From contig CP126202.1 in assembly GCA_030272155.1 (NCBI GenBank), positions 682,001-746,000 on the forward strand: a stretch of DNA of 64,000 nucleotides, given 5' to 3'. Both the position numbers and the translations under genes were made by a program. The notes under the pieces were generated by a model. It did not search any database, was not told the DNA's origin, and saw only the letters and a list, made by a program, of their open reading frames with translations. This document shows, in pieces, positions 10,563 to 64,000 of the stretch. Position 1 is the first letter of the stretch. The number at the start of each line of letters is the position of its first letter. The stretch is from Tetradesmus obliquus (taxonomy: Eukaryota; Chlorophyta; Chlorophyceae; Sphaeropleales; Scenedesmaceae).

Positions 10563-13500
10563 TCAAACGACGGCTAAGCCTGTGTGCCGCTGGAACTGGT
10601 CATACATTGCCATCGTGTCACTGCTGGGGCTGCTGCTGGGCTGCACTCGCAGCAGCGCCAAGTTGAAGTGGCGCGCTGCTACTGCTGCCGCGCCTAGGTC
10701 CTCTTCCAGGGCTGACATTGCTGCCTCCCTGCACAGGGCGCTGATGTCGGCGCCGGTGAATCTGCGGCAGCAGCAGGGCAGAAGCGTCACTGTGCTTGCA
10801 GGATAGAGTAAGGACAGCACTACTGCACGTCACCTGCATACAAATGTGTTGAAGCCAAAACTGCACTCTATCTATAAACATGCTGTCACCCCGTGGTGTG
10901 TGCAGCTAGGTCAGCCAAGTCCACACCAGCCTCCAGCGGTGTGACGCGTTGTTTCACGTGCCCAGCTCACAAACGAAACACACCCAGACCTGCTATCTAT
11001 CACACGTTCACTCACCCGTGGGTGCGTGTAGCCAAGTCAGATAAGTCCACATCAACCGCCATCGGTGCGGAGCGCTGCTTCACGTGCCCAGCTTAGAAAC
11101 AAAGCTCACCCAAATCTGCTCTCTAACACGTGTTATTACACGTTCACTCACCCATGGGTGCGTGCAGCCAGGTCAGCCAAGTCCACATCAGCCGCCAGCG
11201 GTGTAGCACGTGTGTGCACCCGCAGGATCTCCTGCCGCGCTGCTGCGTCTGGCGGGGGCACCAGCAGCAGCCGGTCAAACCTTCCAGGCCGTAGCAGTGC
11301 TGGGTCAACCTTGTCCGGGCGGTTGGTGGCAGCGAGCACCACAACACCCAGGCGGGGCTGCAGAAGGGCGGGAAGCAGGATAGGAATCAAGGGGACGCAC
11401 ACAGGCAAAGCTGTGCAGAGCAGTGCAATGTCGCAGCACAAGCACCACAACACCCAGGCGGGACTGCAGCAGGGCAGGAGGGGTGACAGTGAGGGAGGTG
11501 CCAGCGGCACAAAAGAGGCAGGCAGAGTCAAGCTGTGCACAAAGCACTAACATCCAGTTCCCTTGATGCATGCATGCGTATGCTGCATAGCTTGCAGGGA
11601 AGTGCTGGAGAAGGACAGCACATGAGCAAGGCATTCCAGAGGTTCAAACAGCTGGAAGCAAGCACTATCCACACCAGTTTGACCACAGTTTGACCGCACG
11701 TTAACCACACTTTGACCACCGTTTGACCATAGTTTGACCAACATTGACCGTTATTTTCCCCACCCACCTGCAAGCCGTCCAGCTCTGTCAGCAGCTGCGC
11801 CAGCACCCTCTCTCTCCAACACCAGAGCCCCCGGCATCTTCTCGAGCAGCAACCAGGCCCTCAATGTGATCACAAACTCACAGTTGCGGGCTGGATGCAA
11901 CAGACACAAGCGAGCGGTTGCTGGCAGGTGCTTCACCCACACTTTGACCAGATTTGATCACAGTTTGACCAATCTCTGACTACTCTTTCCTCTTCACCCA
12001 CCTGCAAGCCGTTCAGCTCTGTCAGCAGCTGCACCGGCACTCTTTTTCCAATGCCAGAGGGCCCCTCGCCACATCGCCTCTCGCAGCAACCAGGCCGTCG
12101 ATCTCATTCAAGTACAATCAACACACAGCTCCACATGTCTGTGACCAAACTATGACAACTTTGACCACACTTTGACTACACTTTGACCACACCTTGACCA
12201 CGATCCCACCTGCAAGCCGTCCAGCTCTGTCAGCAGCTGCGCCAGCACCCTCTCTCCAACGCCAGAGCCGCCCGCATCCCCTCTTGCAGCAACCAGGCCA
12301 TCGATCTCATCAAAAAACACAATCGCAGGCGCGGCTCCCCTGGCTCTCGCAAACAGCGCCGCAACAGCCCTCTCGCTCTCGCCAACGTATTTCGAGTACA
12401 GCTCCCCGCCTTTGACTGACAAGAAATTCAAACCGGCTGTTGCTGCTACTGCTCGAGCAAGGAGGGTCTTGCTACAGCCTGGGGGCCCGTAGAGCAGCAC
12501 GCCTTTGGGTGCTGTTGCGCCGAGGCGTGAGAGCGCGTCTGCGTGCTGCTGCGGCCAGAGCACTGCCTCCTGCAGGCGCTGCTTGACTGCTGACAGGCCG
12601 CCCACATCATCCCAGGTCAGCTGCAGCACACAGACAGAGTGGAAGACAGTTGCAGGTCAGGTTACTGATATATGAACTGATAACTTTTTAGCACGTGCTG
12701 ACAGCCCGCCCACATCACCCCAGGTCAGCTGCAGCATACACACTAAGAGCGGCAGACAGTGGCCGGTCAGTGTTACTTCTTTTGAGTCGCTTTCTTTTGA
12801 GCACCTGCTGACAGGCCGCCCACATCATCCCAGGTCAGCTGCAGGAGACAGAGAGAGTGGCAAGAGTGGCGTCACAGTGAGGTGAGAGAGGCTTGTTACA
12901 GGAGAAGGCAAGCTAGTGAGGTGTTAGAGTGACATGAAGCATGCATACATCAAGTATATCGGAAAGCTGTTCCCAGCTTTGCACGAAGTTTTGGGCGCTT
13001 TGCTTTTTGGCTGTGGGACCACTACATGAGGAGTGAATGAGACAGGCAGAAGCAGCATGCGCGTGTCTCTGCGCACATGCCTTGCATGTGTGCGTGAAAG
13101 CGTGTGTGCGTGCATGTGTGTGCGTGAGCATCTGTGCGTGCGTGCATGTGCGTGCACGTGCATGCACGTGTACTTGTGAGCACGAGCATGTACATATTTG
13201 TCTGTGCGCCCGCGCGTGCATGTGTGTGCATGCATACGTGTGCCGCATATGAACACGCGCATGTGAATGTGCGGCATGTGCATGCATATGTATATGTGAG
13301 CACGAGCATGTACATAACTGTCTGTGCGCGCGTGTGCGCATGTGTCACACAGCAGTGCTTGCGAGCGCGTGCATGCACGCGGGTTTTGCGCGCGCATCAT
13401 GCATGTGTTTTTGCGCGCGCGCACGTGCATGTCTGTTCGCGCGTGCATGCACAGGTGTTTGCGCGCACGCGTGCATGTCTGTTTCCGCGCGCATGCATGT

Positions 13501-63060: not shown

Positions 63061-64000
63061 CCCCCAATCAATACGATACATACATACGATACACCGAGTC
63101 AGCCGCAACGCACAACAACCAGCCACTCATCATCATGCCGCGCCGAACCAGGAAGCTAGAAGCAACTCACCAGCAGCAGCACGTGCATCTCAGCCGCGCT
63201 GCATGCAGGCCAACAAACTGTTGCGTGATGTTGACCCCAGGCGACCGATCACACAAAGATCAAGGCGCCAGCACTGCATCCTGGTACGCCACCAGAAACT
63301 CCCCAATCAGCCCCCTGTCAGGACTCACACCCGCTAAACCATACAGCGGCGCTGACCCCTGCGCCCCTAAACCCCCCGGATCCTTCGCCAAAACCGCCAG
63401 CGCCGCCTTGACATCCGCAATCAGCCCTGGCACAACATCCACGTGCTGCGCAGTGAAGCAGAAGTGCAGCGCAGCCGGCCGCTGCAGCGCATTCAAATGC
63501 CACCCCTTTTGTGTCAGCAGGTCATTCAAACAATACACATTCAGCTGTGCAGGATCAGCCGCTGCAAACGCAACCACTGAGGCATGCGGCTGCCCCAGCA
63601 CCCGCAGCTCCGGAAGCTGCAGGGACAGCTGCCGTTTGAAGTCCCGTGCCGCCCGCATGATGCCATCTGCTGCATTCAGCAAGCCGTCGTGTCCTAGAGC
63701 CACCAGGCTGGCCCATGCTGTGGCAATGACTGCGCCTGATCGTGACCCTGCCATGGTAGGTGAGATGTAGAGGCCGCCGCTCCAATCTGTAACACTCGTG
63801 TACTGGTGCTGCCGCAGCTCTGCAGGCAGCATTGAACACACAAAGAGGCAGTCGTGAACACGACGGTTGTGCAGTCGGTGAACTAGTGGCTCCGCAGCTC
63901 TGCAGTTTCAGTGACATTGAATATTGAGCCAGCAAATGTAGTGGGTGGTTTGAATGACTGCGCCTGAGCGTGAGCCTGCCATGGTGGGTGAGATGTAGAG
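62688..64000 (-). CDS. DPL1: Sphingosine-1-phosphate lyase, C-terminal part (runs off the window)
   Basis: Read leftward from beyond the right edge. The main last exon (63260 to about 63836) encodes TDWSGGLYISPTMAGSRSGA, which matches the conserved GGIYASPTIAGSRPG region of S1P lyases, then HDGLLNAADGIMRAARDFK and the C-terminal domain ending EFLVAYQDAVLAP. A second, nearly identical terminal exon ends at 62688. The enzyme is PLP-dependent and cleaves sphingosine-1-phosphate to hexadecenal and phosphoethanolamine at the ER. The catalytic PLP lysine lies upstream, outside the window. Another partial copy of the SPTMAGSRSG segment begins at about 63950. Which terminal exon is used cannot be told from sequence alone. 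Confidence 0.88.
63260..63632 (-). repeat. First copy of the S1P lyase terminal exon segment
   Basis: Continuous with the upstream exon sequence (TDWSGGLYISPTMAGSR). Stop-to-stop distance to the second copy is 572 bp. Confidence 0.9.

Follow-up and report, generated by a model that had tools for sequence, protein, structure and literature searches.

Ladders of short direct duplications at exon borders in Tetradesmus obliquus genes, with copies that differ from their exons as coding alleles do

In genes with mutually exclusive or duplicated exons, a coding-like duplicate stands beside an exon. Other local or repeated additions to genes are known from different organisms. In rice, short tandem duplications consist of local, direct copies of 10-1000 bp (Vaughn and Bennetzen 2014, as summarised in PMC7407515), and the same summary attributes them to staggered nicks followed by end joining. 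In intron gain by tandem duplication, for which the potato RdRp gene is a case (PMC4974935), the duplicated segment gives rise to an intron that relatives lack; the potato paper also describes an 83-bp duplication within an intron that leaves the gene structure unaltered. Introners, as outlined in PMC9860276, are dispersed families of elements that add intron sequence across many genes. A literature search found no ladders of the kind reported below in titles or abstract openings, with subscription papers thinly covered.

Here we describe repeated exon borders in a window of 64,000 nucleotides of the green alga T. obliquus (assembly GCA_030272155.1, contig CP126202.1, positions 682,001 to 746,000), in a genome of 104,662,953 bases and 17 contigs. 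Exon models were obtained by spliced protein alignment with a purpose-written aligner. The GH31 glucosidase (16 exons) was modelled from a 100%-identical T. obliquus protein, OEZ86_004455, which matches over all 957 residues; AFG2 (8 exons) from a Monoraphidium protein, with the donor at 22173 placed by means of a second protein; and the receptor kinase from the T. obliquus paralogue P0242, with 9 of the 15 aligned exons retained and 6 left out. Seven further models, namely the GH31 paralogues L021, L022 and L023 (the last at ~52% identity), a 23-exon GH31 gene on contig 16, the model L026 and the kinases L027 and L028, bring the set to ten genes and 148 introns; one AFG2 intron of more than 5 kb was left out of the intron-length and array-placement counts, which thus cover 147. 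The search with the kinase protein had a single T. obliquus protein among the 120 matches listed and added few new models, locus L009 consists entirely of N, and the models of four further AAA loci, chosen by homology, are of low identity with approximate borders. For the HAD phosphatase and S1P lyase, repeats were taken from self-comparison of the sequence, without exon models.

The ladders are real, occur in several gene families and are unevenly spread. Among the modelled genes of the window, 24 of 58 borders have an extra direct copy (GH31 9/30, AFG2 10/14, kinase 5/14), so that the figure of about 30 repeated borders given in the initial annotation is a fair one once the HAD and S1P lyase repeats are added (Table 1). 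Self-comparison of the ten models yields 67 arrays, 61 with an exon end, five confined to introns and one to an exon; a single border may have as many as five copies. When the nearest copy at each border is considered, within a set restricted to offsets of 80-230 bp, 45 of 65 pairs lie 105-145 bp apart, 3 are closer and 17 more distant, which bears out the unit size first reported; five HAD repeats have offsets of 118, 124, 120, 117 and 121 bp. Donor pairs (34) and acceptor pairs (31) are nearly equal in number and, with both strands and several gene families affected, the breadth originally described is supported. Direct matches outnumber inverted ones by 176 to 4, and a nearby copy is found for 170/827 exon-interior, 745/2366 intron-interior and 37/138 junction windows of five genes, at a cut-off passed by 0.5% of control windows; rates so far above the controls, together with the excess of direct over inverted matches, exclude chance.

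Table 1. Repeated exon borders and related repeats in the window (window coordinates; offsets in bp)
Feature	Positions	Strand	Border	Offsets and remarks
GH31 acceptor ladder	34509..34915	+	acceptor 34833	143, 242, 346
GH31 donor copy	35586..35851	+	donor after 35626	197
GH31 acceptor ladder	36121..36461	+	acceptor 36392	120, 269
GH31 donor copy	36963..37133	+	donor after 37022	106
GH31 donor ladder	37521..38282	+	donor after 37681	257, 337, 593
GH31 acceptor copy	38443..38679	+	acceptor 38601	161
GH31 donor copy	38688..38865	+	donor after 38734	132
GH31 acceptor ladder	40418..40781	+	acceptor 40712	137, 262
GH31 acceptor ladder	41929..42635	+	acceptor 42553	four copies, spacing ~141
AFG2 donor ladder	24830..25165	-	last exon base 25083	127, 250
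AFG2 acceptor copy	24350..24698	-	first exon base 24486	210
AFG2 donor copy	23996..24178	-	last exon base 24135	128
AFG2 acceptor ladder	23216..23654	-	first exon base 23246	131, 265, 393
AFG2 acceptor ladder	22380..22936	-	first exon base 22461	117-bp unit; four copies besides the exon's own; unmatched elsewhere in genome
AFG2 donor copy	22026..22202	-	last exon base 22173 (less certain border)	140
AFG2 acceptor ladder	12587..12870	-	first exon base 12620	107, 219
AFG2 donor ladder	11705..12330	-	last exon base 12210	203, 439
AFG2 acceptor copy	11335..11479	-	first exon base 11357	106
AFG2 donor ladder	10868..11204	-	last exon base 11152	136, 262
Kinase donor ladder	58464..58851	-	last exon base 58769	143, 293; unmatched elsewhere in genome
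Kinase acceptor ladder	57989..58414	-	first exon base 58077	157, 306
Kinase donor copy	53198..53538	-	last exon base 53442	200
Kinase donor copy	52270..52444	-	last exon base 52392	120
Kinase acceptor ladder	51092..51496	-	first exon base 51157	216, 339
HAD-region repeat ladder	30766..31407	+		~120; repeat comparison, no exon model
HAD-region repeat	31845..32153	+		117; repeat comparison, no exon model
S1P lyase exon repeat	62662..63628	-		572; 92% identity; no exon model

An exon-end copy is present in 49 of the 147 introns, and introns with arrays are longer than those without (median 461 bp versus 253 bp); with fairly uniform offsets at many borders, this agrees with the earlier proposal that duplication recurs and lengthens introns. 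Copies on the donor and acceptor sides occur together in 14/147 introns (odds ratio 4.5), an association that may reflect differences from gene to gene. Indeed, the fraction of introns with a border copy runs from 0/13 in L027 and 1/18 in L022 to 15/22 in the contig-16 GH31 gene and 6/7 in AFG2; among the further AAA loci, L029 and L031 have many matches at exons, L030 has one array and L032 no match touching an exon. Only 34 arrays were found in 19 random loci (190 kb), which have no gene models, leaving arrays there unclassifiable by border; when these loci are pooled with three GH31 loci, the 100-150 bp mode is again seen (43/114 matches).

The unit had been described as part exon and part intron. 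Arrays do span exon ends, and in the 50 pairs with offsets of 95-160 bp the exon share has a median of 60 bp and the intron share a median of 67 bp. The intron part is nevertheless often unrecognisable, as BLAST similarity stops no more than 11 nt past the splice site, or before it, in 37/65 pairs; intron-part similarity is seen in 32/65 pairs and absent in 33/65. No pair among the 50 has an intron share below 30 bp, versus 20% expected. Purifying selection would be a sufficient reason for this absence, since an acceptor depends on its branch-point region to work, and a donor on its flanking sequence.

The ladders resemble each of the systems introduced above and depart from all of them: (i) As in the potato RdRp case, exon-intron sequence is duplicated directly and in tandem. 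In T. obliquus, however, the ladders extend introns already present, at a great many borders, and created none in the genes compared; their copies look allelic. Diverged GH31 paralogues share exon lengths such as 135, 118, 39 and 89 bp, and the introns concerned, at least, thus seem to predate the ladders; we therefore reject intron gain by the ladders, an outcome that the initial annotation had mentioned as established for tandem duplications containing AGGT. (ii) Like the rice duplications as summarised in PMC7407515, the copies are direct, adjacent and within the 10-1000 bp range associated with break repair, but the sharp ~120-bp offset, the multi-copy ladders, the excess at borders and the coding signature set T. 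obliquus apart from that summary. (iii) A near-uniform size inside introns would suit introners or other mobile, dispersed units that make introns. In contrast to the dispersed families outlined for introners, with similar copies in many unrelated genes, the two units compared with the whole genome (the AFG2 117-bp unit and a kinase donor unit; 104.7 Mb) match their own place only, and the copies at 61 border arrays repeat their own adjoining exon; we give this origin practically no chance. (iv) Whereas a mutually exclusive exon is duplicated whole, with splice sites at both ends and an open frame, here one exon end is copied: inspection by eye of the copies' inner edges in 65 pairs revealed no splice consensus, and frameshifts interrupt the copies. 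Reading the copies as small exons is rejected on the same lack of an inner splice signal.

The copies do not diverge from their exons as dead sequence would. Mismatches amount to 6.8, 7.0 and 23.1% at codon positions 1, 2 and 3 in the 50 of 65 pairs used for codon-position and indel counts (AFG2 and the kinase, whose frames were unset, were left out). Over 60 pairs (kinase left out), pS is 0.31 and pN 0.065, a pN/pS of 0.21 versus 0.49-0.56 when dead copies are simulated. Donors (0.23) and acceptors (0.19) have similar ratios, as do the three classes of offset modulo three (0.18, 0.20 and 0.24) and the genes with at least five pairs (0.18-0.30), while genes with a single pair give 0.09 (L022), 0.80 (L026) and an undefined value (L028); between copies the ratio is 0.32. 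Where two copies accompany a border, the changes private to the exon are 0.105 silent and 0.010 replacement, those private to the nearest copy 0.158 and 0.047, and those private to the farther one 0.109 and 0.049. Silent changes make up 42 of the 78 unique to the nearest copy, versus 26% expected (p ~1e-7). A model-free measure of three-base periodicity gives the same picture for partial matches in gene loci (37) and window genes (34), with 0 of 1,000 permutations as strong; clear periodicity is absent from partial matches in random loci (26; p 0.45) and from complete matches in gene loci (12; p 0.06), the window (17; p 0.55) and random loci (11; p 0.98).

The codon pattern thus indicates that coding constraint acted on the copies during much of their past. 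Four simpler accounts of it were considered and rejected: faster silent change in the exon body alone, because the nearest copy changed more; a third-position bias in base composition, because changes there go both ways; serial snapshots of the exon, which could account for the farther copies and not for the nearest; and gene conversion confined to one haplotype, between an exon and its copy, which, we argue, would make the intron parts uniform too and keep the ratio at about 0.5.

The simplest identity for a copy that until recently was coding elsewhere is another allele, and the copies indeed look as different from their exons as two coding alleles of one gene. Compared with these loci, proteins of another T. 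obliquus assembly (OEZ85) have 6/948, 35/971 and 68/965 differing residues, making an allelic divergence of this kind independently plausible from protein comparison. Thirteen of the differing sites lie under a copy; there the copy matches OEZ85 in 4 cases, the exon in 6 and neither in 3. These sites and the codon pattern are the grounds on which an allelic origin is proposed. OEZ85 and OEZ86, the assembly examined here, would represent the two haplotypes of one strain. PMC12636532 describes a diploid T. obliquus with extensive heterozygosity and cites a phased genome of UTEX 3031 whose title refers to genetic divergence of haplotypes; PMC12571836 gives assemblies of 100.30 Mb and 104.70 Mb, of 17 pieces each. 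The assembly of strain DOE0152z is almost twice the usual size (PMC5552973), and UTEX 3031 is named as a subclone of it in PMC7955037, where the related NREL 46B-D3 is called a likely diploid with separated haplotypes. Counting against an allelic origin, the silent divergence between copy and exon has a median of 0.26, high for alleles, and is overdispersed (chi-square 116, 59 degrees of freedom).

Our preferred explanation, to which we give about an even chance, is that duplications of ~120 bp recur across exon borders and are shuffled between divergent haplotypes. Direct duplications of roughly 105-145 bp would arise repeatedly in T. obliquus genes, the nearest known route being staggered nicks or breaks repaired by gap filling and end joining. 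Those straddling a border would be tolerated, as the copy joined to the exon still splices and the other ends up in the intron, which it lengthens. In a diploid with strongly divergent haplotypes, the likeliest source of allele-like copies, a haplotype free of the duplication could pair with either copy, and recombination would swap in the sequence of the other allele; the ladder would become a mosaic of old alleles in which, since introns diverge faster, mainly the exon-bearing part stays recognisable. Haplotype exchange would yield the codon signature, the lost intron similarity and a modest load of frameshifts. Set against it are the half of the pairs without intron similarity, exceeding the loss suggested by the silent divergence, the overdispersion of that divergence, and the random-locus and complete matches devoid of clear periodicity. 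By itself, it leaves the location of the arrays at borders unexplained. A variant in which the copies originate from the homologous chromosome would explain the border straddling, the allele-like look and the often foreign intron flank together: repair starting in the exon, the stretch most alike between haplotypes, would copy ~120 bp across the border from the other allele, and the product would be joined without homology. We consider this variant unlikely; if true, introns would be assembled stepwise from pieces of the other allele.

The initial annotation saw the copies as graded relics, that is, plain tandem duplicates of the adjacent border decaying neutrally since their origin. Their direct, local and tandem arrangement, the frameshifts and some stops within them, and the intron similarity kept in nearly half of the pairs all fit such relics, but the silent excess, both in the overall ratio and in the changes of the nearest copy itself, does not support this reading, which we regard as distinctly improbable. 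The same coding-like divergence could mean that the copies are functional, being translated or selected as alternative exon ends, and GT or AG is retained in 58/65 of them, above the 72% that neutral change of the implied extent would leave. Against this, 32 of 38 indels in the copies (50 pairs) break the frame; together with the lack of an inner splice signal and a ratio indifferent to offset modulo three, which also led us to reject read-through translation, this makes it unlikely, as far as sequence can tell, that the copies are translated where they now lie. A present function is accordingly a proposal we hold to be very doubtful. Assembly error, with pieces of the second haplotype misplaced beside the first, would yield precisely allele-like copies in a strain that is a heterozygous diploid; yet the common ~120-bp spacing, the up to five copies per border and the frameshifts are unlike misjoined haplotypes, and the genome is cited as telomere-to-telomere and gapless (in a reference title in PMC12636532), so such an error has in our view only a slim chance of being the cause.

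How far the arrays prefer exon borders depends on the measure. In 60-bp windows of five genes (22/76 donors and 15/62 acceptors with a nearby copy), junctions are not richer in repeats than introns, whose windows contain the copies themselves. When arrays are the unit of counting, a border lies within 61 of 66, versus 52% expected for uniform placement on array-free introns, and this remains improbable (p ~4e-6) when the expectation is raised by hand to about 68% to allow for weaker detection in introns. Hence the closeness to splice sites reported initially is upheld per array and not per window. The preference might be an artefact, with duplications landing anywhere and only the exon-bearing ones staying detectable as introns diverge fast. 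The window measure, the frequent loss of intron similarity and a weak, hidden similarity confined to intron sequence, present in introns free of arrays (3.3% of 492 windows versus 0.8% of controls), speak for the artefact, and the array counts against it; we give it a substantial chance, somewhat short of even, and it is compatible with the haplotype-exchange explanation. Detection bias as the sole cause is rejected on the array counts, a result that depends on the ancestral intron length. Given this dependence and the weak hidden similarity, a border preference is likely rather than certain.

Intron lengthening and the origin of spare splice sites have mostly been argued from single old cases. 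With an exon-end copy in a third of the introns examined, the process becomes open to study within a single genome and to tests on living strains. What is new is that the copies look like alleles: a local repeat is not necessarily a copy of its neighbour, which matters for the dating of duplications and for the annotation of divergent diploid genomes. The S1P lyase repeat likewise diverges in a coding-like manner, with 15 silent versus 4 replacement differences over 120 codons.

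Two exons of the GH31 gene in the window resemble fusions, their counterparts being separate exons in the paralogue L021: (i) the 288 bp of the shorter exon equal the sum of 209 and 79 bp of L021 exons, and (ii) the longer one, of 892 bp, corresponds to four exons in that paralogue. Judged from these two exons, some introns of the window gene appear to have been lost, while others were lengthened. One of its introns entirely contains a 21-bp minisatellite, which is one of the five intron-only arrays found in the ten gene models.

Paralogues also differ in their content of ladders, the partial copies of exon ends and splice sites that lie in introns. 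Almost none are present in L022 (GH31), L026 (another modelled locus) and the kinases L027 and L028, which lie as pairs of adjacent paralogues on contigs 11 and 2, whereas other members of those families, L021 and the 23-exon GH31 model of contig 16, carry many.

Near the AAA gene of L031, outside the window, lies a repeat whose unit length equals that of the ladders; in contrast to these, however, its copies are nearly identical, sharing a 57-bp core with 96–100% identity. Within the window, an AFG2 intron houses an LTR-type retroelement, with one reading-frame stretch repeated at both ends and a 1,123-codon frame inside. The remaining repeats are listed below.

Coordinates of the exons and repeats described (window positions unless a locus is named)
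Feature	Position	Unit	Copies	Remark
LTR-type retroelement	about 13860-21720			
CAG/GCA/CTG triplet runs	across 22000-61000		very numerous	many within or adjoining coding exons
Short tandem repeat	26236-26402	56 bp	three	97% match; upstream of modelled AFG2 exons
GH31 shorter fusion-like exon	35339-35626			
GH31 minisatellite	41250-41786		about 23	
GH31 longer fusion-like exon	42553-43444			
L031 repeat	L031:1066-2202	120 bp	about ten
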